A stretch of 18,392 nucleotides of DNA from Caldilineaceae bacterium (GTDB lineage: Bacteria; Chloroflexota; Anaerolineae; Caldilineales; Caldilineaceae). The stretch is taken from assembly GCA_019637645.1 (NCBI GenBank), contig JAHBVH010000113.1:1-18392 (forward strand), given 5' to 3'. The translations under genes and the position numbers were made by a program. Of this stretch, positions 3,072 to 17,601 are shown in pieces. The notes under the pieces were generated by a model. The model had not been told where the DNA came from, searched no databases, and was given only the letters and a program-made list of their open reading frames with translations. Every line of letters starts with the position of its first letter. The stretch's first letter is position 1.

Positions 3072-4958
3072 TTACAAGGGAGCCGCAAGGGGTAGGGCTA
3101 GATAGAAGGTGCTGCCCAGCTTGTGATCAGGCGCTTCTACCCAAAGTTTCCCTTGAAGCGCTCTGACCATCTTCTGTGCCAGATAGAGCCCTATCCCTAG
3201 CCCCCGATGCGCACCGACATTGCTGCACCGATAGAAGAGGTCAAAGATGCGGCCGCGCTCTTCGGGCGGGATGCCGATCCCTGCATCCTCAATGGCGAAG
3301 AGACAGTCGGTGGCGGTATCGGTGCAACGCACGTGCACAGTCGAGTGTGCCGGGGCAAATTTATAGGCATTGCTTAGCAGTACTCGCAGAACGGCATGGA
3401 CTAGATCCAGATCGGTGTTGATCCGTTGTTGGCTTGGTTGAAAGGCAAAGCAGACGGTGTGCTCTGCTGTTGCTTCACCACCCAGTCGCTGCTCCAGATG
3501 TGCGCCTAGGGCTGTGACTGTATAAGGGCATGGCTTGAATGGTAACTCCTGATCCAGGTTAATGGTCACAATCTCTTGGAGCATGGTGCTAAGATAGATT
3601 GTTTGCTCGCGGAGAATCGTATAATAGCGATCACGCTTTTCCTGGGCTAGGGTGTTAAAACGATTGATCAAAATATCAACGGTGAAAGTAATGACGCTGA
3701 GTGGTGTGCGAAACTCGTGCGAAATGGCGTTGATCAGCGCTGCTTTCAGGTGCCGCAGTTCCTCTTCTTGCCGCAACGCATGCTGGAGATCCTGGGACAA
3801 GCGCTGTTCGCGTTGGAGCGACGCTTGCAAGTCCATCGTGCGCCGTTGCACTTCGTTCTCTAATTCTTTGGCGTGGTGTTGCGCGTTTGCTACGGCTTGT
3901 TGGCTAAGGCTGAGATCATGCTCAATCTCAACTACCCGCAACAGAATCTGGTTGCGCAAATCGAGAATCGATTCCCGCAGGGCTTGATATTTTTCGAGAT
4001 AGTCAATGGCCTTGGCAAAGCGTCGCTGTCGGCGATAGACTTGTGCAATGGCTTGGTAGATATGATATTCGTAAAACGGTTGGTGCTGGCTTTGGGCCAA
4101 GGGGAGCGCACGATGGAGATAGGCTGATGCCACTTTCCACTGCCGTAGGTCGCTGTGTAAGATCCCCAGCACCCAACACGCGGCCATTTCGCCGTAGGGG
4201 TTACGCGTCTCTTCCACTTGGGCCACTTGGAGAGCAGTTTCCAGCGCTGCTTTGGCTTCCTCATATCGGCCTAAGCCCCAGTAGGCAAAGCCCAAATTAA
4301 AATAGTGAACGCTGCGCGCATTAGGCCGATTCCACGCGTCCAGGGCATGGGCTTGCAGCGAACAAGCTAGCGCACGTTCATATTGACGCTCAAAGCTCAG
4401 GGCGTTGCTATAGTGATCGAGCGCCGACTGTAAACGATACCAATCTTCGATTTCCGTAAAAAGTTGAACGGCTTTTTCGTAACAGGGAAAGGCTTCTTGG
4501 TGGGCCCCCACCGCGGCGTAGATGATCCCACGGAATAGGTAGGCGACTCCTTCTTCAATCCGATCTTGATTTTGGATGCTAGCAAGCTGATGCTGAAAGT
4601 TATAGCGTAAAGCGACTAGATATTTGCCAATACGCAGGGCGTTATACGAAATCGCGCCAAAGATCTCGGGCAGTAGATCGAGGAAATGGTGCGCTTGACA
4701 AAGCTTGAGCGCTTTCTCGCCTTCGGTCAGGCCCTCCGTAAAGTTGGCTTGAAAGGTTAAACATCGGCTCAGCAAGATCTGACTTTCCACCACCCCGCGC
4801 GGATAGCTAGCATAGATCGCCTCAGCTAAGTGACGTGTTTCTTCAATAAGCGACTGTACTTGGCGCAGATCAGCTTGATAGACGAGCCCCGCGATTTGAC
4901 GATTGCGGTGCTGGACAATCGCAATCTGCTCTTCTAATGAGCTGGCCGGTTGGTTCAT
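3072..4958 (-). CDS. soluble TPR sensor histidine kinase
   Basis: A 628-residue cytoplasmic protein without membrane helices or signal peptide. Residues about 40-330 are tetratricopeptide-like helical pairs (for example YEKAVQLF and GRYEEAKAALETALQVAQ). A coiled coil follows (about 340-405), then a HisKA dimerisation domain with the phospho-acceptor His414 in SHEFRTPL. The HATPase domain has the N box (LLSNAYKF, Asn530), G1 (DAGIGIP, Asp558), an FDLFYR F box and G2 (GLGIG, 586-590). All key residues are present, so it should be active. The TPR part probably senses a protein partner rather than a small extracellular ligand. No response regulator is in the window, so it is an orphan here. The ATG at 4958 has no strong ribosome site, but a strong-looking promoter lies upstream at 5085-5112. 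It converges with the guanidinium exporter. Confidence 0.9.
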   Translation of the reverse strand: MNQPASSLEEQIAIVQHRNRQIAGLVYQADLRQVQSLIEETRHLAEAIYASYPRGVVESQILLSRCLTFQANFTEGLTEGEKALKLCQAHHFLDLLPEIFGAISYNALRIGKYLVALRYNFQHQLASIQNQDRIEEGVAYLFRGIIYAAVGAHQEAFPCYEKAVQLFTEIEDWYRLQSALDHYSNALSFERQYERALACSLQAHALDAWNRPNARSVHYFNLGFAYWGLGRYEEAKAALETALQVAQVEETRNPYGEMAACWVLGILHSDLRQWKVASAYLHRALPLAQSQHQPFYEYHIYQAIAQVYRRQRRFAKAIDYLEKYQALRESILDLRNQILLRVVEIEHDLSLSQQAVANAQHHAKELENEVQRRTMDLQASLQREQRLSQDLQHALRQEEELRHLKAALINAISHEFRTPLSVITFTVDILINRFNTLAQEKRDRYYTILREQTIYLSTMLQEIVTINLDQELPFKPCPYTVTALGAHLEQRLGGEATAEHTVCFAFQPSQQRINTDLDLVHAVLRVLLSNAYKFAPAHSTVHVRCTDTATDCLFAIEDAGIGIPPEERGRIFDLFYRCSNVGAHRGLGIGLYLAQKMVRALQGKLWVEAPDHKLGSTFYLALPLAAPL

Positions 4959-5138: not shown

Positions 5139-5308
5139 TTCCAAGGCAAGCGCTCACTTCGTCATCGCTGTGGATAAACCCTGTATTTGTAAGGTTCGCG
5201 GTGGCCCTGGCACAAATCACTAGCCTGAATCACCCTCGTCAACCGGACACGCGGCCTTGGGGATCGATCTGTGCTTCCTACTGTAGTCTGGTTTGGTCAC
5301 CTCCCCTA

Positions 5309-5351: not shown

Positions 5352-5975
5352 GTGAGCTGGATGATGACCCAGGAAACAAAGTTTCAGGTAACCAATCAAC
5401 GCTTGATCGAGCGTTGCCGTCACGGTGATACGACCGCGTGGCAAGCGTTGATCGACCGCTACGTCCGTTTGGTTCACTCGATTCCGGTACGCTACGGTCT
5501 CGCACCAACCGAAGTCGAGGATGTCGGGCAGGAGGTCTTTTTGGCGCTTGCCCAGCAACTTCACCAAATTGTTGACCCCGAAAGCCTGCCCGCTTGGTTG
5601 ATCACCACGGCGCGCCGCGCCAGTTGGCGCCTGTTGCAGGCCCGCAAGCGTGAACAGCCCCTAGAAGACCATGAATTGGTCGATAGCCCGGTCGCCGATA
5701 CCCATGCTCCCCTCGGGGCGCAAGCTCCCTCTCTTCAGGATCTCTTCCAAGGCTGGCAAAACCAAGAGGTGTTGACCCAAGGCTTGACCGCGCTTGGCGA
5801 ACGCTGCCGTCAACTGCTCACCTTGCTCTTTATCGATCCCCAGGAACCTTCCTACGATGAGATTAGCGTCACCCTGGCCCTTCCCAAAGGAAGCATCGGC
5901 CCTACGCGCAACCGCTGTCTTCAGCAATTGCGCGCCATTCTCGCCGGGCTCGGTTTTACTTCGATCACCGATTAA
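5352..5975 (+). CDS. ECF-type RNA polymerase sigma factor
   Basis: A 207-residue sigma-70 family protein. Region 2 spans about 14-85 (LIERCRHGDTTAWQALIDRY, then EVEDVGQEVFLALAQQL and a basic ARRASWRLLQARKR). A linker of about 45 residues follows, then region 4 at about 145-200 with the helix-turn-helix in SYDEISVTLALPKGSIGPTR. Region 3 is absent, as expected for the ECF group. The start is a GTG at 5352 with AAAGG (5342-5346) five bases before it; ATG codons at 5361 and 5364 are alternatives with poorer spacing. An in-frame stop at 5331 limits any extension. The anti-sigma-like gene follows after 82 bp and a TPR-CHAT protease after that, suggesting one regulatory operon. The exact ECF group is not assigned. 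Confidence 0.88.
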   Translation: MSWMMTQETKFQVTNQRLIERCRHGDTTAWQALIDRYVRLVHSIPVRYGLAPTEVEDVGQEVFLALAQQLHQIVDPESLPAWLITTARRASWRLLQARKREQPLEDHELVDSPVADTHAPLGAQAPSLQDLFQGWQNQEVLTQGLTALGERCRQLLTLLFIDPQEPSYDEISVTLALPKGSIGPTRNRCLQQLRAILAGLGFTSITD

Positions 5976-6057
5976 AAATTGATGTATTTTTTTACCAAAG
6001 GTCGCCACCTTTAGGATAGAGGAGAAGCAGTGGAAGGATGCCGGAAAGTAGATAGCG

Positions 6058-6663
6058 ATGATGCATATTTTAGAAGATACATTCTACCAATGGGTTTTTG
6101 CCGACGGTGTGCCGAGTGCCCAAGAGCAGGCTCATCTCCACCAATGTCCAAGTTGCCATGCTTACCTGCTGGGTTTGCACCAGATGGCGCAAGAGTTCCA
6201 AATCGCCCGTGCTAGCGAACCAAGCACGGCTGCCTTAACTCGCTACTACCACTTTTTTGAAGAGATCGCGCAATTCCCTTCGCTGGTGCAGCGGCTGGGA
6301 ACTTGGCTCACCGCCCAACTACAGTGGGACGGACGTCACCAGCCCGCTTGGCAAGGTGTACGCAATGCCCAACGCGTCAGCTATCGCCTGCTCTATGTCA
6401 CCGATGAGGCCGAAATTGAGTTATTGATAGCACCCCAAGAGGGCCAATGCCAGATCGAAGGGGAAGTGATTGCCCTTCGTGACCGCGTCCCTGGACAATG
6501 TGAGATCTACGCGTTGCCAGCCATGTCACCGCTGGCGACGACGCCCTGTGACCCCGATGGTCGGTTCCGGCTGGGGACCTTTCCGGTTGGGCACTATCAA
6601 CTCCACATTCGCTTCGACCAGGACGACCTTACGCTGGTGATCGATGATTTGGAGTTGTCCTAG
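6058..6663 (+). CDS. zinc-motif anti-sigma-like protein with C-terminal beta-sandwich domain
   Basis: A 201-residue soluble protein with no membrane helix. Near the N terminus H26-x3-C30-x2-C33 (HLHQCPSC) matches the zinc-binding anti-sigma (ZAS) motif that clamps ECF sigma factors. Residues about 55-110 are helical with aromatic residues, and about 128-200 (GQCQIEGEVIALRD onward, ending IDDLELS) look like a carboxypeptidase-regulatory or transthyretin-like beta sandwich. The gene sits directly after an ECF sigma gene, the usual partner arrangement. The next gene, a CHAT protease, begins on the base after this stop codon, so the two are probably translated together. The beta domain may sense a ligand or be the protease target; this is inference. 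The start has a tandem ATG (6058 and 6061) and only a weak ribosome site (GGAAAG, 6043-6048). Confidence 0.72.
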   Translation: MMHILEDTFYQWVFADGVPSAQEQAHLHQCPSCHAYLLGLHQMAQEFQIARASEPSTAALTRYYHFFEEIAQFPSLVQRLGTWLTAQLQWDGRHQPAWQGVRNAQRVSYRLLYVTDEAEIELLIAPQEGQCQIEGEVIALRDRVPGQCEIYALPAMSPLATTPCDPDGRFRLGTFPVGHYQLHIRFDQDDLTLVIDDLELS

Positions 6664-9657
6664 ATGGCGACTGCCGAGCCAGCTACCCCATTGACTGCCG
6701 AACAATGGGCCCACCTGGAAACCTTGGATCAACCTGCCGCCCTAGCCTATGTAACCGCACAGGGCGCACTCCACCCGGTGACAGTCACCGCGTTGGCTAC
6801 GATGGCGCTTGCCCAAGCCGAGCATGCCCCCCCCCTGGCTGCCCACTGGCTTGCGCTGGCCGAAGCGCTCGAAGCCCAACTGGGCAATGCCCCGGCGCGC
6901 CTTGCCCAAATTGCCTATGCCCAAGCGCGCCTCCAACTGGTGCGGGGCGAGTTGACCGTGGCCGAGGCCATGCTTCGGCAAGCCCAGCTCGCGTGGCAGC
7001 GCGCCGGTGATGCCGATGGCTATAATCGCTCTTTGTTGGGGCTGACCCAGATCCTTGCCATGCAGGGGCGTTACCCCGAAGCCGAAGAGGCAGCTCGCCA
7101 CGCCATCGCCACCGCGACGAGCGAGCCCGCGGCTGATCAGCCGCTTCTTCCCCTCATGCGGCGGGTAGCGGCCCATCATAACCTAGCAACGCTGTTGCTC
7201 TATCAAGAACGCCATGCCGCCGCCCTGACCGAATATGAAGCGATTCGGCAACTCTTGGTGACTGCGCAAAGCACGGCCCAACGGGCGGAGGAAGCGGCCG
7301 AGCTGACCAGCAAACTCGCCCACAGCGATCTCAATCGGGCCACGGCCTTAACCTTTCTCGATCAACCTGGCGCGGCGGAAAGCGCCCTTCAACAAGCCAT
7401 TGCCCAATTTGCTCAACTCTCTGACGCGCTCAATGTCGGTCGTAGTCGCACGAATCTAGGCCGTCTCTACTTGCGGACAGGCCAATACGCAGCGGCGTTG
7501 GCGAGCTTTGAACAAGCCTTCCATGAGCTGCTAGGGCCCACCACGACCATTGCCACGCTGGCCATAGACGAGTTGCGCCTCGCCGATGAACTGTTGCTCG
7601 AATATGCCACGGCGTGTCTGATCATCAACCTGTTGCCCGAAGCCACCCAATTGTTGGCCCACTGTGAAACGCTCTTTCGCAGTGCCAACCAACCCTATGA
7701 ACTCGGCCAAACCCGCTACACCCAAGGTCTTATCGCCTTGCGTACCCAACAGTGGCAGGCCGCGGAAAGTACCTTGGATGAAGCCGCCACGCTCTTTGCC
7801 GCGCTGCAAAACTCATTCTGGCTGAATCGTACCCGCTTGGCCCAAGCCACCGCCGCCTATACACAGCAACAGCTCACCCAAGCGCGCACCCTGCTGGATC
7901 TCTTATTGGTCGAGACCACGCCCACGCCTGCCGCCTCGCTAGCCTGGGATCGGAGCGGCCAGATCGAGGCTCATTTGCTCTATACGCGGATCGAGCTGGC
8001 CCAAGGCGCGCTCGCCGATGCACGCCAGCGCGCTACGCTCATTGCGGCCTTGCTCAAAGGACCCGTGGCTGATGAGGATCATACCCACCTCTGGCCCCAC
8101 CTTGCCCAGCAACTGCAACACCTGCTGGGCAAGATTGCCCAGGCCACGGGCGATCATACAACGGCGCGGCACCATTTGCAGGCTGCATTGACCCAACTGG
8201 AAGCGCAACGGGCAACGCTGGTGGTAGAAGAGATGCGCAGCGCCTTTGTCGATGACAAAAGTGAGCTTTACGCTGATTTGGTTGAGACGATTTTTGCGAT
8301 GGCCCCCCAAGAGCCGGCCTCCGCTGATCCAGCGACCGTGGCCGAAGCCTTTGGGGTGATCGAGCAGGCCCGTTCGCGCGTCCTCTTAGAACGGCTCCTC
8401 ACGGCGCTCGAGGAACCCGCCGCCAGTGCCGTGGATGCCACCGACGCCCTCCGGATTCGGCAATTGCGCGACCAACTCCACTGGCTCTATAACCAACTCA
8501 TGGGCGAGAGTGGCAGCCGCCGGGTGGATGCGCAACTGAGCCAGCAACTTCAGCAGATCGAAGCCGCGCTCCAGCAAGTGGCTTGGCGGCAATCTCCGCT
8601 GTTGGCGCAAGCCCAAGCGGTGGACCTGCCCACCTTTCAACAGAGTCTGGCTCCCGATCAACAGGCGATTGTCTACGCGGCTCTCCACCAAGAGCTTTTG
8701 GCCTTTGTGGTTGATCGTACCAGCGTGCGCGTCTATCGCCAGCTAACAACGTTGGCGACCATCCAGGCGGCGACGACGGAATTGCGCTTTCAGCTTGGCC
8801 GGGTTGAATTGGGGCCAGCCTATCTCGCTCGCCATCAAGCGCGGCTCACCGAGCGGCTCCAGGCCGCGTTGCATCAGCTCTATCAACTGGTTTTGGCTCC
8901 CATGGCCGATGCGCTCTATGCCAAGCGCATTCTCTTTGTGCCCTTTGGCCCGCTCCATCGTCTGCCCTTGCATGCCTTATGGGATGGCACCCACTACTGG
9001 ATTGAACGGGCCGAATGCAGCTATGCCCCTAGTGCTAGCTTGGCTGTTCTGCGGCGGCAACCGACCCTGGCTGGCGCTCTAACGCGCTGGGCGGGCTTTG
9101 CCGTCCGCGATCCATCGATCCCTGCTGCCAGCGAAGAAGTGCTCCGGTCGGCGGCCTACTTTGCCCAAGCGGCCACCTATCTGGATGAGCAGGCCAATCG
9201 TACCAATTTGTGGCAGGCTGCGGCCCACCATGACATTTTGCACTTGGCTACCCATGCACTTTTTCGCCCAGATAACCCCTTCTTTTCGGCCCTCAAATTG
9301 GGCGATGGCTGGGTCGATGTGCGAGAACTCTATCAACTGCCGTTGGCCGCGCGTTTGGTGGTGCTCAGTGCCTGTGAAAGTGGGGTGGGCGAGCTGGCCG
9401 GTGGTGATGAATTGGTGGGGCTTGCCCGCGGCTTTTTGGGCGCAGGCACCTGCGAATTGATCGCGAGCCTGTGGAATGTCCATGATGCGAGTGCCGTGCA
9501 ACTGATGGAGCGTTTCTACCACCATCTGCGCGATCTGCGCCAACAGGATCTGCCGTCGCTGCGTCCCGCGGCTGCCCTGTGTGCCGCCCAACGCCAGGCG
9601 ATTCAGGAGCACCAACATCCCTATTATTGGGCCGCTTTCTTTGTGATCGGTGCGTAG
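6664..9657 (+). CDS. TPR-CHAT caspase-like protease
   Basis: A 997-residue soluble protein. Residues about 50-540 are tetratricopeptide-like helical repeats (for example ALASFEQAFHELL and AESTLDEAATLFAAL), followed by a helical stretch (about 595-660) and a C-terminal CHAT domain (about 680-997). The caspase-type dyad is present: His864 in HLATHA and Cys904 in SACESG, followed by GGDELVGLARGFLGAG and the family ending in PYYWAAFFVIG. It should therefore be a complete, active cysteine protease whose TPR part reads a partner or signal. An ATG abuts the stop of the anti-sigma gene, with GGAG (6651-6654) 9 nt upstream. With the sigma and anti-sigma genes this suggests a protease controlling sigma factor release, but the substrate is not shown by sequence. 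Some CHAT proteases are also used in bacterial self-killing defence, an alternative role. Confidence 0.92.
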   Translation: MATAEPATPLTAEQWAHLETLDQPAALAYVTAQGALHPVTVTALATMALAQAEHAPPLAAHWLALAEALEAQLGNAPARLAQIAYAQARLQLVRGELTVAEAMLRQAQLAWQRAGDADGYNRSLLGLTQILAMQGRYPEAEEAARHAIATATSEPAADQPLLPLMRRVAAHHNLATLLLYQERHAAALTEYEAIRQLLVTAQSTAQRAEEAAELTSKLAHSDLNRATALTFLDQPGAAESALQQAIAQFAQLSDALNVGRSRTNLGRLYLRTGQYAAALASFEQAFHELLGPTTTIATLAIDELRLADELLLEYATACLIINLLPEATQLLAHCETLFRSANQPYELGQTRYTQGLIALRTQQWQAAESTLDEAATLFAALQNSFWLNRTRLAQATAAYTQQQLTQARTLLDLLLVETTPTPAASLAWDRSGQIEAHLLYTRIELAQGALADARQRATLIAALLKGPVADEDHTHLWPHLAQQLQHLLGKIAQATGDHTTARHHLQAALTQLEAQRATLVVEEMRSAFVDDKSELYADLVETIFAMAPQEPASADPATVAEAFGVIEQARSRVLLERLLTALEEPAASAVDATDALRIRQLRDQLHWLYNQLMGESGSRRVDAQLSQQLQQIEAALQQVAWRQSPLLAQAQAVDLPTFQQSLAPDQQAIVYAALHQELLAFVVDRTSVRVYRQLTTLATIQAATTELRFQLGRVELGPAYLARHQARLTERLQAALHQLYQLVLAPMADALYAKRILFVPFGPLHRLPLHALWDGTHYWIERAECSYAPSASLAVLRRQPTLAGALTRWAGFAVRDPSIPAASEEVLRSAAYFAQAATYLDEQANRTNLWQAAAHHDILHLATHALFRPDNPFFSALKLGDGWVDVRELYQLPLAARLVVLSACESGVGELAGGDELVGLARGFLGAGTCELIASLWNVHDASAVQLMERFYHHLRDLRQQDLPSLRPAAALCAAQRQAIQEHQHPYYWAAFFVIGA

Positions 9658-9783: not shown

Positions 9784-9843
9784 GTTACGGCCAGAGATCT
9801 GACAGGTTTGGAAAACCTGTCAGGTCTTGCCCAAGTGCGTAAC
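9784..9843. repeat. palindromic intergenic repeat, copy 1
   Basis: An 11-bp perfect hairpin CTGACAGGTTT (9799-9809), loop GGA, AAACCTGTCAG (9813-9823) is framed by GTTACG (9784-9789) and CGTAAC (9838-9843). The sequence CCAAGTGCGTAAC after the hairpin is identical to that in copy 2 at 11818-11830. Compared with copy 2 it lacks about 16 nt between the left terminal repeat and the hairpin. It lies between the CHAT and subtilase genes and could also act as a terminator or processing site, although no T tract follows. Confidence 0.75.
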
Positions 9844-9866: not shown

Positions 9867-11630
9867 ATGAATATTCAACCACTAGTCACACAAGCAACCC
9901 CTTGCCCCCAACGCCTAGCTACCCTGGTGAGTACGCTGCTGCTGACGTTGCTGCTTTTGCTCAGCTTCCAGATGACTGTCCAGGGCGCGCCCTCGTTGGG
10001 CGCGCTTGATGATGACGATGATGATATTGAGATCGAGGGGCGTGTCACCCAAGCCCCGGCTCATCCCGCTGGTTATGGTCTTTGGTTGGTTCTCACCCCG
10101 GATCAGGTCACCTATCGTGTGATAGTAGATGAGGAAACCGAATGGGAGGAAGGCATTGCCGTGGTCGGCCAGTGGGTTAGTGTCGAAGGTGAACTCACTG
10201 CCCCGCTGGAAATCCTGGCCGAGGAGATCAAGCGAGAAGAAGATGAGATTGAGGGCTTTCTCCTTTCTGTGCCAGCGACGCTTGATGGGGTGGGCGATTG
10301 GGTGATCCAAAGTGACAGCACACAGACCTACACGATCCGCGTCGTAAGCTCAACCTTGCTCGAAGATGGGGTTCTCTCCCCAGGTGTGTGGGTCGAAGCC
10401 GATGGCTGGTGGCAGCCTGATGGCACCTTTCTGGCCACAGAACTCTGGTTGGATGACTTTGAAACGAATCAAGTGGTCGTGCGCCTGGCAACGGGGGTGC
10501 TTTCGACAACGATTGCCAGCCAATATGGCTTGACACCACTCCAAACCTTGCTAGCTTCGGGCAATATTCACCTCTTTCAGACCGCTGATGATCAAGAGGA
10601 GACCATTGTGGCCGAGCTAAGTGCTAACGCTACCCAAGTGATCTGGGCCGAATTGAACTATGTGGGTGGCATCCCCGAAGGCGACGGCTATAAAACCTGG
10701 CATTGGGGTGGGGATGATCCAACCGGCTACATCAACCAAAACGCCTTTGCACAAATCAACCTGACGGGCACCACCACCGCTACCACGACCTTTCAGGGCC
10801 AGGGCATCACCATCGCCGTGCTCGATACTGGCGTTGATCTCGATCATCCAGTCTTGGCCGCGCGCCTCTTGCCGGGTTGGGACATTATCAGTGATGATGC
10901 CCTGCCCGATGACGAAGGCTTTGGCTTGGGCTGGGGGCATGGCACCCATGTCACGGGCATCCTCGCCCAAGTTGCACCACAGAGCCAGATCCTGCCCGTG
11001 CGTGTGCTGGATAGCAATGGGCGTGGGAACACCTTTACCTTGGCCTATGCCATTGAATGGGCCGTGAAACAGGGCGCAGATGTGATCAACCTCAGTCTCG
11101 GCACCCCTTTTGATTCCTTTATCTTGCGCGATACCATTCAACAAGCCACCGCTCAAGGCGTCATTGTGGTAGCGGCGGCTGGCAATATGAACACCGATCA
11201 GCCCCAATTTCCTGCCAGCTATCCTGCCGTGATCGCGGTAACGGCGGTCGATGGCAACAACCAAAAGGCCGCCTTTGCCAACTATGGCGCTGGTTGGGTT
11301 GATCTCGCCGCGCCCGGTGTCGGCATTATCTCGACCATGGTGGGGCCATTGGGGAGTGGCTATGCCACCTGGAGTGGCACCTCTATGTCCGCCCCCTTTG
11401 TCAGTGGCACGGCGGCGCGCATTCGCCAAGCCCTCCCCGCTGCCACCGCGCCGCTGGTTGAACGCTATCTGCGGAGCCATACCCAATCGCTCGATAGTGT
11501 CAACCCCGCCTATGCGGGCCAATTAGGGGGGCTGCTCAACGTGAGCGCCGTCCTCACCGACGCCCCCGTCGATAGCCAAACCCCATTCGAGTCCGCCAAC
11601 CAACTCTACTTGCCCCTGATCCGCCAATAG
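9867..11630 (+). CDS. secreted subtilisin-like serine protease (S8) with N-terminal beta repeats
   Basis: A 587-residue protein with a signal peptide (hydrophobic core about 17-36, likely cut near Ala41), then an aspartate run (DDDDDD, about 49-54). Two repeated beta modules follow at about 55-125 and 128-197, of the DUF5666-like pattern (IEGRV, then WVSVEGEL; IEGFL, then WVEADGWW). The peptidase S8 domain spans about 310-555 with the triad Asp320 (VLDTGVD), His358 (GHGTHV) and Ser506 (GTSMSAP), and oxyanion Asn440 (AAAGN). All catalytic residues are intact. The C terminus ends in LYLPLIRQ, a tail common on secreted Chloroflexota proteins, perhaps a sorting signal. GGAG (9857-9860) lies 6 nt before the ATG. 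It follows the CHAT gene on the same strand after 209 bp with a repeat in between, so shared transcription is uncertain. Confidence 0.93.
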   Translation: MNIQPLVTQATPCPQRLATLVSTLLLTLLLLLSFQMTVQGAPSLGALDDDDDDIEIEGRVTQAPAHPAGYGLWLVLTPDQVTYRVIVDEETEWEEGIAVVGQWVSVEGELTAPLEILAEEIKREEDEIEGFLLSVPATLDGVGDWVIQSDSTQTYTIRVVSSTLLEDGVLSPGVWVEADGWWQPDGTFLATELWLDDFETNQVVVRLATGVLSTTIASQYGLTPLQTLLASGNIHLFQTADDQEETIVAELSANATQVIWAELNYVGGIPEGDGYKTWHWGGDDPTGYINQNAFAQINLTGTTTATTTFQGQGITIAVLDTGVDLDHPVLAARLLPGWDIISDDALPDDEGFGLGWGHGTHVTGILAQVAPQSQILPVRVLDSNGRGNTFTLAYAIEWAVKQGADVINLSLGTPFDSFILRDTIQQATAQGVIVVAAAGNMNTDQPQFPASYPAVIAVTAVDGNNQKAAFANYGAGWVDLAAPGVGIISTMVGPLGSGYATWSGTSMSAPFVSGTAARIRQALPAATAPLVERYLRSHTQSLDSVNPAYAGQLGGLLNVSAVLTDAPVDSQTPFESANQLYLPLIRQ

Positions 11631-11751: not shown

Positions 11752-11836
11752 TTAGAAGTTACGCAGTTGATCGGCGTGACCAGAGCTGACAGGTTTGGAA
11801 AACCTGTCAGCTCTGGTCCAAGTGCGTAACTTCTAA
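11752..11836. repeat. palindromic intergenic repeat, copy 2 (MITE-like)
   Basis: An 85-bp element with 14-bp perfect terminal inverted repeats (TTAGAAGTTACGCA at 11752-11765, its complement at 11823-11836). Inside is a perfect 19-bp hairpin (11778-11796 and 11800-11818) with a GGA loop. The core CTGACAGGTTTGGAAAACC and the right flank CCAAGTGCGTAAC are shared with copy 1 at 9784-9843. Terminal repeats, small size and no coding capacity suggest a non-autonomous mobile palindrome of MITE or REP type; no clear target-site duplication is visible. Confidence 0.75.
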
Positions 11837-11926
11837 AAATAATAAATTCATGTATTTTCCTGCCGCGTTGCGCGCTCCTCTAAAGAGAGGCTGCTGAATT
11901 AACAGCCCGTTAATAATCCAGGCTTG

Positions 11927-12003: not shown

Positions 12004-13314
12004 ATGTATCTACACCGCACGCCAAATCAATTGCGCATTGCGCTCTATTCTCATGATACCCAAGGGCTCGGCCATATTCGGCGCAATGTGGCTATCGCCG
12101 AAGCGCTTGCGGCTGGCCTCGACCAGCCCGCCATTTTGCTCATTTCGGGCGCGCAAGTGGCAGGAGCCTTTGATCTGCCGCCAGGTACGGACTGCCTCAC
12201 CGTGCCAGCGCTGGGCAAAACGCCGACAGGCCAATATCACGCGCGGTCGTTGGGCGTTTCGCTCAATCGCTTAGTGGAACTGCGGGCGACCATGATCCAA
12301 GCGGCCTTGACCGCCTTCGACCCGGATGTCTTGATTGTGGATAAAGTGCCGCAAGGTGCATTGGACGAACTGCTGCCCGCGCTCCAAGTCTTAAAGGCAA
12401 CCGGTAAGACCCGTTGCATCCTGGGCCTGCGCGATATTTTGGATGATCCGGTAACGACCCGCCACGAATGGGTCAAAAGTAACAGCGACCACCTCATCCG
12501 CACCTATTATGATGCGCTGTGGGTCTATGGCGATCCCACCGTCTACGATGCCGTAACCGAATACGACTGGGCTCCTGATATTGCCGCCAAAGTCGCCTAT
12601 ACCGGCTATCTCAATCGCTTGCAAACCCGCACCGAGCCCCTGGATCGCAACCCCACTCTCCTGGACGCCTTGCAGGTTCATGATCGGCGCTTGGTTCTCT
12701 GCGCCGTGGGGGGCGGCCAGGATGGCTATCCCGTTGCCCATGCCTTTGCCCAAACGCCCTTGCCCGCAGATACCGTTGGCGTCTTATTAACCGGGCCTTA
12801 TATGCCCGCCGCGCAACGGGCCGAATTACAAGCGCTAGCCCAGCAACAGGCTAATCTGCACTTGATCAATTTCACCACTGATCCCGCACCCCTCTATCAA
12901 CGGGCCGACGCCGTGATCGCGATGGGGGGCTACAACACCACCTGTGAAATTTTGGCTGCCCAGAAGCACGCCCTGTTGGTGCCGCGCGTCACGCCCCGCT
13001 TGGAACAGTGGATTCGGGCCCAACGACTGCATGAACTGGGTGTGCTCGATATCGTTCACCCCGATCATCTTTCCCCCGCGCGGATCGCCCACTGGCTCCA
13101 CCAACGCCCGCGGCCCTTGGCTAGCCGTTGCCCCATCGATCTTGATGGCCTGACCCGGCTGCCCCACTTGTTGACCAATCTCGTCACCGATGCCCCCCGC
13201 CCTGCCCAACCGACCTATCCTACGCTTCACCCGATGATGGAGAATCACTATGGTAACCACAACCGCACCACACCGCGTCGCGTACCTGCTCAAAATGTAC
13301 CCGCGCTTCTCTGA
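12004..13314 (+). CDS. GT28/MurG-like glycosyltransferase (COG4671 type)
   Basis: A 436-residue soluble GT-B glycosyltransferase. The N-terminal lobe has the SHDTQGLGHIRRN motif (16-28), whose G-x-GH loop is typical of MurG/GT28-like predicted glycosyltransferases. The C-terminal lobe has DAVIAMGGYNTTCEIL (302-317), the nucleotide-sugar-binding turn of this family. There is no signal peptide, so it acts in the cytoplasm or on the inner membrane face. TAAGGA (11989-11994) lies 9 nt before the ATG. Its last 65 nt overlap the next gene in another frame, and its C-terminal tail (about 405-436) looks unstructured, so the stop may have been displaced by a frame change. It opens a run of glycosyltransferase and export genes. 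The donor sugar and acceptor cannot be read from the sequence. Confidence 0.85.
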   Translation: MYLHRTPNQLRIALYSHDTQGLGHIRRNVAIAEALAAGLDQPAILLISGAQVAGAFDLPPGTDCLTVPALGKTPTGQYHARSLGVSLNRLVELRATMIQAALTAFDPDVLIVDKVPQGALDELLPALQVLKATGKTRCILGLRDILDDPVTTRHEWVKSNSDHLIRTYYDALWVYGDPTVYDAVTEYDWAPDIAAKVAYTGYLNRLQTRTEPLDRNPTLLDALQVHDRRLVLCAVGGGQDGYPVAHAFAQTPLPADTVGVLLTGPYMPAAQRAELQALAQQQANLHLINFTTDPAPLYQRADAVIAMGGYNTTCEILAAQKHALLVPRVTPRLEQWIRAQRLHELGVLDIVHPDHLSPARIAHWLHQRPRPLASRCPIDLDGLTRLPHLLTNLVTDAPRPAQPTYPTLHPMMENHYGNHNRTTPRRVPAQNVPALL

Positions 13315-14503
13315 GACCTTTATTGTCAACGAGATCCTAGCCCACGAAGCGGCTGGCTTGGCCGTGGAAATCTTCTCGCTGCGCGCCCCGACTGATGGGC
13401 GTTTTCATGCCGATTATGCCCGCGTGCAAGCACCGGTCACCTATCTCCACGCGGGCTTGCCCAAAGTGACGGAGTTCTGGCAGCAGATCCAGCAGACGGC
13501 CAAACGCTTCCCCGCGCTTTGGGATCTCCTGCGCGATGAGCCCACGCTGGGGGTAGATGATCTCTACCAAGCACTGCTCTTGGCCCCATTGGTCGTCGAT
13601 CGGCAGATTACCCTGCTCCATGCCCACTTTGGCTCCGTGGCGACGACGGTGGCCCGTTTGGTCAGCCGTTTGACGGGGATTCCCTATACCTTTACCGCCC
13701 ACGCCAAAGATATTTTTCACGAAGCGGTAGACCGGGCCGATCTCCATGCCAAATTACAAGACGCAGGCGCGGTGATCACCGTGAGCGAATACAATGTCAG
13801 CTACTTGCAGGATCTCTATGGTCATGCTGCTGCACGAGTCCAACGCATCTACAATGGCCTGGATCTGACCAAATTCCGCTACGCCACCCCCCTGGACCGG
13901 CCACGCCAGATTGTGGGCGTGGGCCGGCTGATCGAAAAGAAGGGCTTTGGCGACCTGATCGATGCCTGCGCGCTCCTGCGCGACCGCGGTGTTGACTTCA
14001 CCTGCGCGATCATCGGTGAAGGGTCCGACCGCAAGGCGCTCCACGCGCGCATTGACCAGCACAACCTGAGCGACCTCGTTCGTCTCCTCGGCCCCCGGCC
14101 CCAAGCCGCGGTGATCGAGCATGTCCAAGGCGCGGCGGTCTTTGCCGCTCCCTGTGTCATCGGTGGCGATGGCAACCGCGATGGCCTGCCCACGGTTTTG
14201 TTAGAAGCCATGGCGCTGGGCACGCCCTGTATCGCGACGGATGTCACGGGGATTCCCGAACTCTTGCAGCCCACCGCTGGGGAAGAGACCGGCCTGCTGA
14301 TCCCCCAACATGATCCGGCAGCCCTGGCCGCGGCGCTGCAAGCCTTGCTCGATTCGCCCCGCCTCCGCGTCCAGCTTGCCGAACGGGCTCGCCAGCAGAT
14401 CGAGACGCACTTTGATATTCAGAAGAATACAGCTCACATTCGCAAGCTCTATGCCAACCTAAGCCCCCAGTTGGCCGAACAGCAAGCCTGGGAGGTGGCC
14501 TAA
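13250..14503 (+). CDS. GT4 family glycosyltransferase
   Basis: A 417-residue GT-B protein. The start region LLKMYPRFSETFIVNEILAH resembles the colanic-acid/exopolysaccharide GT4 branch, followed by LLHAHFG (about 123-129) and FTAHAKDIF. The C-terminal lobe has VGRLIEKKGF and the donor-binding segment DGNRDGLPTVLLEAMALGTP with Glu319 and Asp311 in the E/D-x7-E positions. It should transfer a sugar from a nucleotide donor with retention. GGAGA (13239-13243) lies 6 nt before the ATG at 13250, so this start is preferred even though it overlaps the upstream gene by 65 nt; an internal ATG at 13295 would remove conserved residues. The stop overlaps the next start as TAATG, which shows tight coupling. 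It probably builds the same glycan as its neighbours. Confidence 0.9.
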   Translation: MVTTTAPHRVAYLLKMYPRFSETFIVNEILAHEAAGLAVEIFSLRAPTDGRFHADYARVQAPVTYLHAGLPKVTEFWQQIQQTAKRFPALWDLLRDEPTLGVDDLYQALLLAPLVVDRQITLLHAHFGSVATTVARLVSRLTGIPYTFTAHAKDIFHEAVDRADLHAKLQDAGAVITVSEYNVSYLQDLYGHAAARVQRIYNGLDLTKFRYATPLDRPRQIVGVGRLIEKKGFGDLIDACALLRDRGVDFTCAIIGEGSDRKALHARIDQHNLSDLVRLLGPRPQAAVIEHVQGAAVFAAPCVIGGDGNRDGLPTVLLEAMALGTPCIATDVTGIPELLQPTAGEETGLLIPQHDPAALAAALQALLDSPRLRVQLAERARQQIETHFDIQKNTAHIRKLYANLSPQLAEQQAWEVA

Positions 14504-17500
14504 TGCGCATTGCCTATCTCTGTGCTGATCCTGGCATTCCGGTCTTCGGGCGCAAAGGCGCGTCGATTCACGTCCAAGAAGTGATCCGCGCCCTGTTGCG
14601 CCAAGGCGCGACCGTGGAACTCTTTACCAATCGGGTGGGGGGGGATACTCCGCCTGGTTTGGAGACAGTGACTGTCCACAAAATGCCCGACCTGCCCAAA
14701 GGGATGGATGCCGGGGAACGCGAACTGGCAGCGTTGGCCGCCAATGTGGAATGGGTGAATACGCTAGCGGCTGCTGGCCCTTTCACCCTGGTCTATGAGC
14801 GCTACTCCCTCTGGAGTGATGCGGGCATGACCTTTGCCCAACAGCAAGGCATCCCGGGGTTGCTGGAGGTCAACGCCCCGCTCATCGAAGAGCAAAGCCA
14901 GCACCGCACGCTCTGTCATCGGGACGCGGCCGAAGTGGTGGCGCAACGGACCTTTGGCGCGGCCAGTGCGATCTTGGCCGTTTCCGATGGCGTGGCCGAT
15001 TATCTCAAGCAGGTGGGCTCTCCTGCTGACCGCGTCCATGTCGTGCCCAATGGGGTGGATCTGGCGCGTTTTGTCCAATGTCCCTTGGTGGGTGGCAAAG
15101 CCGTTGATCCCGCCACTAAGCCCTTTACGGTGGGCTTTGTGGGGACACTCAAAGCGTGGCATGGTCTGGAGGGCTTGGTCGAAGCCTTCGCCCTGCTCCA
15201 CCATTGGGTCCCCAATGCGCGGCTCTTGTTGGTGGGGGATGGCCCGCTGCGCGAGTCATTAACGGCTGACCTAGCCGAACGGGGCCTGCTGGCGGCCACC
15301 CACTTTACCGGTGCCGTCGATCACCGTGAAATTCCCGCGTGGCTGGCGGGCATGGATGTGGCCGTCGCGCCCTATCCACCGCTGGAGAACTTCTACTTTT
15401 CGCCGCTCAAGGTCTACGAATATATGGCCGCGGCGCGCCCGGTTGTCGCCAGCGCCATCGGCCAGATCAACCGCGTGATCACCCACGAACAGAATGGGCT
15501 ACTCTATCCCGCCGGAGAGACCAAAGCCCTAGCGAGCGCCCTGTTGCGGCTCTACAAGGATCCCGAGCTGGCCCAACGCCTGGGCGACGCCGCCCGCCAG
15601 ACCATCCGCCAACATCATACCTGGGATGCGGTGGCCCAGCGGATTTTGGCGTTGGCCGGGGTAAATGACGGCGCTACGCGTACACCTCCCAGCACACCCC
15701 CCAACGCACCACCTGCCGACCGCCCTGATCGCCCGGCCACCCGCCCCAGCAAGCCCCAGACGTTGCAGCAAGCCTTACCCGGTTTGGGCGAAATTCTGCG
15801 CTACTTTCGCCCCGAGATTCTGCAACAACGGATGCTCATTGCCGTGGCCGTGGTGAGCATGGTGGCGGGGATTGGTCTGCGCCTATTGGAGCCGTGGCCC
15901 CTGAAATTTATTGTGGACTTCCTCAGCAATGGGGACAGCCGTGGGTTGCCGCTTTGGCTCACCAGCCGTTTGGGCGCGGAAGGGATCTTGGCCGTCGCGG
16001 CTGTGGGCGCGGTGGCGGTGGTAGCCGCGGGCGCGGTGACGAATTATCTAAGCACTGTCACTATGGCGCTCGCCGGTAACCGGATCTTAACCCAAGTCCG
16101 AGGGCGGCTCTATCGGCATCTGCTGAACCTCCCCTTGGCCTATCATACCCGTGCCAAAGGGGGTGACCTGCTCACCCGGCTCATCGGCGATATTGGCCGC
16201 CTCGAGGAAGTGGCCGTGACTGCCATGTTGCCTCTGCTCATTAGCTGTCTGACCCTGGTCGGCATGGTGAGTATTATGTTTTGGCTCAACTGGCAACTGG
16301 CCCTGCTCGGCTTGGCAACCTTGCCGTTGGCAATGCTGACCATGTCGCGCTTCTCGGGGCGTATCCGCCGCACCGCGCGAGATCAGCGGCAGCGGGAAGC
16401 CGAGCTAGCCGCCACCGCAGCTGAGTCGCTAGGCGCGATCCGGGTGGTCAAGGCGTTCTCTCTGGAAGAGAGCTTGAGCGCCATCTTTGGGGCGGCCAAC
16501 CAAAAGAATCTCAAGGATGGCGTGCGGGGCAAGCGCCTTTCGGCCAGCCTAGAACGGGCCATTGACATTTTTATCGCCACGGGTACCGCGCTGACGCTCT
16601 GGTATGGGGCCCATCTGGTGCTGCGCGGGGCGTTGACCTTGGGCGATCTGATCGTCTTTCTCAACTACCTCAAAAGCGCGTTCCGGCCCATGAGCGATCT
16701 GGCGAAATATACCGGGCGTATTGCCAAGGCTGTGGCCGCCGGGGAACGGATTCTGGATGTCCTGGCAACCGAGCCCGCCATCCAAGATCGGCCCGATGCC
16801 ATTGTCGCGCCCCGTCTTCAAGGCGCGGTGACCTTTGACCAAGTTAGTTTTGGTTATGAGCGGGCGCAACCGGTGTTGCGCAATGTCTCCTTGCATATTC
16901 CCGCTGGGCAGAAGGTGGCACTGGTGGGGCCGTCTGGCGCGGGGAAATCCACCCTGGCCAGCCTGCTCTTGCGGCTCTATGAACCAACCGCGGGTACCAT
17001 CTTGGTCGATGGCTTGCCGCTGGACACCTACACGACCCAGTCACTGCGCAACCAGATGAGTGTAGTCCTCCAGGAAAGTCTGCTCTTTGGCGACACGGTG
17101 CGCGCCAATCTGCGCTATGGCGCACCTGCTGCCGACGATGAAGAGATCGAAGCTGCGGCCCGCCAGGTCAATGCCCATGACTTTATCATGGCGCTGCCCG
17201 AAGGCTATGCGACGGTATTGGGTGAGCGGGGGGCAACGCTCTCTGGTGGGCAACGGCAGCGGCTGGCGATTGCCCGGGCCGCCGTACGCCGAGCGCCCCT
17301 GGTCATTCTCGACGAGCCCACCGTAGGGCTGGATGAGGAAAATGCCCAAGCGGTCCAGCGGGCCTTGCAAGGCTTAACGGCCTACGCGACGACCCTGATC
17401 ATCACCCATGATCTGCAACTCGCCGTCACCGCGGATCGCATCCTCTATTTGGAAGATGGCGCGATCCGCGAGGAGGGCACCCACGCTAGCCTGTTGGCCC

Positions 17501-17601
17501 TCAATGGTCGCTATGCGGCCCTCTACAAGCTGCAAACGCGGGATAAGACGGCGCCGGAGGCCGCGACCGCGCCGGAGGCGCACCATGCTTACACCGCCTG
17601 A
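14503..17601 (+). CDS. fusion of GT4 glycosyltransferase and ABC exporter (permease plus ATPase)
   Basis: One 1032-residue frame with two complete enzymes. Residues 1-385 are a GT4 glycosyltransferase (GRKGASIHVQEV, VPNGVDLARF, VGTLKAWHG, SPLKVYEYMAAARPVVAS at about 300-317). A proline-rich linker runs from about 388 to 425. Residues about 445-740 are an MsbA-type transmembrane domain with roughly six helices, and about 780-1015 an ABC ATPase with Walker A GPSGAGKST (Lys815), LSGGQ (913-917), Walker B with Asp937 and Glu938, and the H-loop His969. It would dimerise into an exporter with two tethered glycosyltransferases facing the cytoplasm. No stop or frame break is seen at the junction, so the fusion appears genuine. 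The ATG overlaps the preceding stop (TAATG), with a strong GGAGG (14491-14495) upstream. Export of a glycosylated lipid or polysaccharide unit is likely but the substrate is unknown. Confidence 0.92.
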   Translation: MRIAYLCADPGIPVFGRKGASIHVQEVIRALLRQGATVELFTNRVGGDTPPGLETVTVHKMPDLPKGMDAGERELAALAANVEWVNTLAAAGPFTLVYERYSLWSDAGMTFAQQQGIPGLLEVNAPLIEEQSQHRTLCHRDAAEVVAQRTFGAASAILAVSDGVADYLKQVGSPADRVHVVPNGVDLARFVQCPLVGGKAVDPATKPFTVGFVGTLKAWHGLEGLVEAFALLHHWVPNARLLLVGDGPLRESLTADLAERGLLAATHFTGAVDHREIPAWLAGMDVAVAPYPPLENFYFSPLKVYEYMAAARPVVASAIGQINRVITHEQNGLLYPAGETKALASALLRLYKDPELAQRLGDAARQTIRQHHTWDAVAQRILALAGVNDGATRTPPSTPPNAPPADRPDRPATRPSKPQTLQQALPGLGEILRYFRPEILQQRMLIAVAVVSMVAGIGLRLLEPWPLKFIVDFLSNGDSRGLPLWLTSRLGAEGILAVAAVGAVAVVAAGAVTNYLSTVTMALAGNRILTQVRGRLYRHLLNLPLAYHTRAKGGDLLTRLIGDIGRLEEVAVTAMLPLLISCLTLVGMVSIMFWLNWQLALLGLATLPLAMLTMSRFSGRIRRTARDQRQREAELAATAAESLGAIRVVKAFSLEESLSAIFGAANQKNLKDGVRGKRLSASLERAIDIFIATGTALTLWYGAHLVLRGALTLGDLIVFLNYLKSAFRPMSDLAKYTGRIAKAVAAGERILDVLATEPAIQDRPDAIVAPRLQGAVTFDQVSFGYERAQPVLRNVSLHIPAGQKVALVGPSGAGKSTLASLLLRLYEPTAGTILVDGLPLDTYTTQSLRNQMSVVLQESLLFGDTVRANLRYGAPAADDEEIEAAARQVNAHDFIMALPEGYATVLGERGATLSGGQRQRLAIARAAVRRAPLVILDEPTVGLDEENAQAVQRALQGLTAYATTLIITHDLQLAVTADRILYLEDGAIREEGTHASLLALNGRYAALYKLQTRDKTAPEAATAPEAHHAYTA

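Follow-up and report, generated by a model that had tools for sequence, protein, structure and literature searches.

This report concerns an 18,392-nucleotide stretch of DNA from a Caldilineaceae bacterium (contig JAHBVH010000113.1; the whole stretch is here called the window) and, within it, four genes on the forward strand that encode an ECF (extracytoplasmic function) sigma factor, a small protein that we refer to as the middle protein, a TPR-CHAT (tetratricopeptide repeat-CHAT) cysteine protease and a secreted S8 subtilase. An earlier note on this DNA had taken the first three of these as a single signalling unit. The three are indeed open reading frames (ORFs) lying in series on the + strand, and the middle gene runs stop-to-start into the CHAT gene as described there, with TAG at 6661-6663 abutting ATG at 6664. 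The main features are listed below.

5352-5975, + strand: ECF sigma factor with a GTG start, recognised by Pfam Sigma70_r2, NCBIfam sigma70-ECF and ECF matches in the PDB
5983-6014, + strand: putative sigma-dependent operon promoter, with a -35 element TGTATTTT (5983-5990), a 16-base spacer and a degenerate -10-like element CACCTTTAG (6006-6014)
6058-6663, + strand: middle protein (P0002), 201 amino acids, with an anti-sigma domain (residues ~1-75) and a C-terminal beta domain (~83-200)
6361-6363, + strand: codon of Arg102 of the middle protein, a candidate cleavage site in the loop that follows strand 1 of the beta domain
6664-9657, + strand: TPR-CHAT cysteine protease, 997 amino acids (Pfam CHAT, 188 bits), with His864, Cys904 and Asp941
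9867-11630, + strand: secreted S8 subtilase with DUF5666 domains (Pfam Peptidase_S8, 165.8 bits; DUF5666, 40.8 bits), the fourth gene

The sigma protein scores 39.3 bits against Pfam Sigma70_r2 (cut-off 24) and 57 bits against NCBIfam sigma70-ECF (cut-off 42.9, residues 29-195), with region 4 under the Pfam cut-off (13.8 versus 24.1), and a profile search of the PDB returned ECF matches. On these matches it is classed as an ECF sigma factor (sigma70 group IV, a group defined by regions 2 and 4 only). An alternative start, ATG at 5361, gives the 204 amino acid version found in the database (P0021). Named sequences closely homologous to the sigma and CHAT proteins come mostly from Caldilineaceae (Chloroflexota).

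The dyad of the protease, which the earlier note had described as intact, proves to be so: His864 and Cys904 are invariant in all 74 CHAT proteins read, that of the window included, and the presence of both the CHAT domain and the dyad places the protein among the CHAT peptidases. Asp941 is kept in 73 of the 74, the remaining sequence having a gap at this position. In separase, an aspartate of this kind, as the acidic S1 residue, gives arginine specificity; when the CHAT region was searched against the PDB, separase itself came up no better than E 0.25. The middle and CHAT genes lie no more than 50 bases apart in 48 of 60 loci, and the spacings in the other 12 partly reflect the start codons called by the ORF finder.

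To examine how far the arrangement extends, 86 loci were read (window included), 74 of which have a CHAT ORF of at least 400 bits. A close CHAT (at least 720 bits) is present in 42 loci, 35 of them with 1.5 kb of context on both sides and 37 with both a sigma factor and a middle protein; these counts were made on an unthinned set, in which L015 and L016, for example, are near relatives. Amongst the 35 full-context loci the sigma gene is found in 34, the middle gene in 35 and a same-strand subtilase gene after CHAT in 31, and all four genes lie on one strand in 31 (again counting the window). In three of the four exceptions (L019, L136 and L137) the subtilase gene is elsewhere in the locus; the fourth (L023) is without the sigma gene, and no subtilase was found. 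Carriers include Caldilineaceae, other Chloroflexi and Anaerolineae, TA06 (L014), Acidobacteria (L019) and Acidimicrobiaceae (L022), the last from the same phylum as L130-L141. When named genomes were scanned with the CHAT alignment, 25 loci came up. CHAT matches at E ≤ 1e-60 occur in at least 45 of the 150 genomes searched in one class and in at least 26 of the 296 searched in one phylum; these two figures count CHAT proteins rather than whole units and are lower bounds, since few candidates were scored per genome. Between every pair of the four genes, protein distances are correlated (r 0.78-0.92) across 33 of the 74 loci, namely those in which none of the four is missing and CHAT exceeds 850 amino acids, shared ancestry not having been removed, such that the correlation leaves co-evolution and shared descent unseparated.

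Judged by this conservation, the four genes form one unit. The three genes of the earlier note do stay side by side in relatives from several phyla, and the conservation test that it had set did not refute its proposal; the trio, however, is only part of the unit, which takes in a fourth gene (the subtilase at 9867-11630) and carries its own promoter.

The middle protein had been called a zinc anti-sigma factor. That it is an anti-sigma factor, probably a soluble one of class I, is supported from several directions. P0002 has the motif H26-x3-C30-x2-C33, whose three residues are invariant across 12 aligned sequences (P0002 counted), although it has neither a Pfam zf-HC2 match nor an NCBIfam match. 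Against the NCBIfam model NF052375 'anti-sigma factor', nine of the 25 middle proteins that were aligned reach E ≤ 0.01, with scores under its curated cut-off. A search of the PDB with the middle-protein profile found RsiW at E 0.0024 (residues 8-67), as well as ChrR, DdvA, RseA and 3hug_B, presumably RslA, at E 0.4-0.8. In the AlphaFold2 model the N-terminal part comprises four helices, with a predicted local distance difference test score (pLDDT) of 90, whilst the C-terminal part is a beta sandwich. The zinc, by contrast, does not hold throughout: the Hx3Cx2C motif is missing in 25 of 60 middle proteins with the unit still persisting, so that the description fits some branches only, and the motif is dispensable. 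The best match to NF052375 (L021, E 1.8e-9) is itself zinc-less, and Hx3Cx2C is not obligatory in class I anti-sigma factors.

In the beta domain, Arg102 is an arginine in all 60 aligned middle proteins, and the next residue is in most cases Gly, Ser, Asn or Ala; these proteins were selected with a profile made from 25 of them and the set is therefore not independent. Mean pLDDT around this residue is 75 (residues 91-100) and 74 (101-110). The beta domain and Arg102 vary less than the anti-sigma domain, and the unit also occurs with the anti-sigma domain mostly lost. That CHAT cuts the middle protein is plausible, and Arg102 is put forward here as a candidate cut point. Strong hydrophobic segments are found in none of 60 middle proteins, one of 74 CHATs and one of 37 sigma factors, compared with 42 of 48 subtilases, which makes the middle protein, and not the subtilase, the natural substrate of CHAT. 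The subtilase of the window has an N-terminal hydrophobic segment and all three catalytic motifs, which a simple pattern detects in 31 of the 48. An identical inverted repeat, GACAGGTTTGGAAAACCTGTCAG, flanks its gene, at 9801-9823 before and 11788-11810 after.

The short gap between the sigma and middle genes contains the putative promoter. Of 37 loci, 26 have the heptamer TGTATTT within 260 bases past the end of the sigma gene; shuffling gave a mean of 0.42 and at most 3. It lies upstream of sigma in one of 36 (the window itself, at 5182), past CHAT in none of 36 and within 260 bases past the subtilase in 10 of 31 (shuffled mean 0.30). Relatives have TGTATTT(T) with a -10-like element about 16 bases on, which by eye falls into a CTCT type in Caldilineaceae, an ACTGT type in L015, L016 and L021, and a GCAT type in L130-L141. 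GTATTTT is present in 9 of 11 Caldilineaceae sigma-middle gaps (shuffled mean 0.095). In the window the -10-like element, CACCTTTAG, departs from the strict pattern at two positions, and matches with two mismatches are not above chance within the window alone. A position weight matrix built with this locus left out nevertheless ranks two sites of the window in joint first place (~5983 and ~11851, both 19.9), the third scoring 17.6. The second of these sites and the genes past it are as follows.

11851-11885, + strand: second promoter copy, downstream of the subtilase gene, an exact match to TGTATTTT-N16-CTCY
12004-17601, + strand: three ORFs past the second copy, encoding two glycosyltransferases and a glycosyltransferase-ABC exporter fusion, a candidate regulon

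The last ORF (14503-17601, + strand) encodes a single protein of 1032 amino acids in which a glycosyltransferase is fused to a half-exporter of the ABC type, with membrane and ATPase domains.

Genome-wide, the strict pattern gave nine matches in eight genomes (control two), five of them at the module, with three of the eight genomes lacking a match; a GTATCA variant gave two in eight genomes (control none), both at the G001 module that carries that variant, and misses the site of L012 in its own genome, G008; and the GCAT version gave 15 in 11 genomes (control three), eight of them at the module, with two of the 11 genomes lacking a match. Altogether 15 of the 26 matches to the three strict patterns are at the module. 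As the patterns were drawn by eye from module sites, they contain these by design and are not independent of them, and the informative part is how few matches fall elsewhere. A looser pattern was not specific (22 matches in six genomes, against 14 in the control). The presence of the element past the sigma stop, along with the rarity of its strict versions genome-wide, suggests that expression of the inhibitor, the protease and the subtilase is probably driven by the sigma factor itself, and we regard the pairing of sigma to promoter as well supported. Further copies are followed by genes for DUF5666 proteins (in L001, where it is the second gene, and in L010 and L158) and, in L150, for a cytochrome-c7-like protein; judged by eye, every one of these has a hydrophobic N-terminus. 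In the window and L003 the genes that follow encode glycosyltransferases. The output is therefore likely to be at the cell surface or beyond it. Of the four matches to the first strict pattern that fall outside modules, two (L152 and L157) have no convincing gene close behind.

A second version of the unit is seen in 19 loci between L096 and L125, in which the same CHAT family is accompanied by a middle protein with two zinc motifs, one of which is above the Pfam zf-HC2 cut-off in L096. None of the 19 has a match to the first type of sigma factor. Nine of 12 aligned upstream ORFs from this branch match sigma70-ECF at E ≤ 0.01, indicating that most of the branch carries a very diverged sigma factor, and profile comparison relates this second type to the first (92% probability, E 5e-7). 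TGTATTT precedes the middle gene in none of 17 loci of the branch. More generally, 22 full-context loci have a CHAT of 400-720 bits, with a middle protein in 15 and a same-strand subtilase in eight.

The four-gene unit, the intact dyad and a conserved promoter-like element can be read from the sequence itself. As a whole reading of the locus we favour, at about even chances, an autoregulated sigma switch released by CHAT cleavage of the middle protein. At rest, the ECF sigma factor would be bound by the anti-sigma domain. A cytoplasmic signal, probably sensed by the TPR part, would activate CHAT, which would then cut the middle protein, most likely in the Arg102 loop near the start of the beta domain. 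Free sigma factor would transcribe the middle protein-CHAT-subtilase genes from the promoter just past its own gene, synthesis of the inhibitor acting as negative feedback and that of the protease as an amplifier, and would also transcribe a small number of genes whose products are secreted or lie at the surface; the subtilase would be part of the output. A bolder form of the proposal is more tentative, and we think it more likely wrong than right: that this is a widespread CRISPR-free switch in which an arginine-specific CHAT, with Asp941 as its S1 residue, cuts every middle protein after Arg102 and frees a sigma factor that drives little beyond its operon, existing in at least two versions (with differing sigma types and one, two or no zinc motifs) and that a module of this sort could have given rise to the sigma branch of Craspase.

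The strongest competitor, itself unlikely, makes the zinc anti-sigma the sensor, with redox release as in ChrR, RsrA and RshA, and CHAT and the subtilase mere outputs of the regulon. Both proteases do sit behind the putative sigma-dependent promoter, and soluble zinc anti-sigma factors are often oxidant sensors, according to the available text of two sources (PMC8999054, PMC7406223), but the unit persists where the zinc motif is missing and the middle-CHAT spacing is tighter than a mere output requires. Somewhat less likely again is displacement without cleavage, CHAT binding the middle protein via its conserved beta domain and dislodging the sigma factor, with the dyad reserved for another substrate. 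The greater constancy of the beta domain and Arg102, and the units with little anti-sigma domain remaining, fit this; the invariance of His864 and Cys904 does not, as it implies that catalysis matters in each CHAT copy read. It is improbable that the proteases degrade the sigma factor itself and so keep its level low, as the available text of PMC8999054 proposes for ECF54: that proposal presupposes no anti-sigma factor, whereas one is probably present here, and the subtilase of the window, with its N-terminal hydrophobic segment, should not encounter the sigma factor. A mere neighbourhood of genes that share no pathway has nothing found in its favour; it is contradicted by their co-occurrence in 31 of 35 full-context loci and fits poorly with the correlated distances (subject to shared ancestry), and can be all but set aside.

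Elsewhere in the window, a Guanidine-II riboswitch (Rfam RF01068, 35.7 bits) lies directly upstream of a small multidrug resistance (SMR) exporter ORF (together 2568-2958, + strand; ORF ~2638-2958). The ORF has a SugE-type NCBIfam match of 111.9 bits (cut-off 126) and is probably a guanidinium exporter controlled by its riboswitch. A TPR-histidine kinase gene (3072-4958, - strand) adjoins the module on the opposite strand.

Parts of this arrangement are found in known systems. The EACC2-caspase systems of Kaur et al. (2021) have a caspase-like peptidase with an ECF sigma factor and a TPR protein nearby, but differ in their EACC2 and DUF1822 domains, and the available text describes no anti-sigma-beta protein or subtilase (PMC8195603). 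With ChrR, RsrA and RsiW the middle protein shares Hx3Cx2C on an N-terminal helical domain; its C-terminal part is instead modelled as a beta sandwich, not a cupin or membrane part, and the gene next to it encodes a CHAT protease.

ECF54, whose model sequence is SFT86700.1 of Geodermatophilus amargosae, is closer. Regulation by proteolysis was proposed for it because carboxypeptidase, subtilase and CHAT proteins lie nearby with no anti-sigma factor, as far as the available text goes (PMC8999054). The association of sigma factor and proteases is thus not new. Compared by gene context only, the same kinds of protein are present here, and the weak carboxypeptidase-regulatory-like matches of the middle protein, under the Pfam cut-off, suggest that the context described is probably this one. 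The difference is that ECF54 is described there without an anti-sigma factor, whilst nine of 25 middle proteins here match an anti-sigma model and the window has Hx3Cx2C. Five loci (L142, L145 and L147-L149) have other gene orders, with middle proteins, where found, that are short or weakly matching; these may be closer to the ECF54 context. What is added here is the anti-sigma domain, the promoter and the second sigma type with its double zinc motif, and it may be that ECF sigma factors described as lacking an anti-sigma factor have a diverged one that was overlooked.

A parallel in logic is Craspase/CASP of type III-E CRISPR (Csx29, Csx30 and CASP-sigma), which likewise has a TPR-CHAT protease, an ECF sigma factor and a two-domain sigma inhibitor. 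According to the available text, the cut made by Csx29 falls within a small, flexible loop of the inhibitor's C-terminal domain (PMC10028731). Searched against the PDB, the CHAT region comes closest in sequence to chains that carry the names CHAT domain protein, TPR-CHAT or Csx29 (best E 3e-18), the first of which we take to be type III-E proteins. The position of Asp941 is serine in five matched PDB chains, apparently of one protein, and Csx30 was not listed in the PDB search with the middle-protein profile, which is weak evidence of difference. Membership of type III-E was rejected, the protease scoring 77.8 bits against a Csx29 cut-off of 300 that none of 14 relative genomes reached. The absence of CRISPR genes beside the unit, remarked on in the earlier note, was borne out as far as the window was scanned: no Cas family was found in the nine ORFs scanned with Pfam (Cas7-11 was not sought in relatives), nor any CRISPR-array-like direct repeats of at least 20 bases within 200 bases across the 18.4 kb. 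TPR-CHAT proteases are, to our knowledge, common, and few have a known substrate; here a substrate candidate, a target sigma factor, a promoter and probable output genes come together within about 6 kb. Should CHAT prove to cut the middle protein, the sigma branch of Craspase would be one instance of a wider logic that does not depend on CRISPR.

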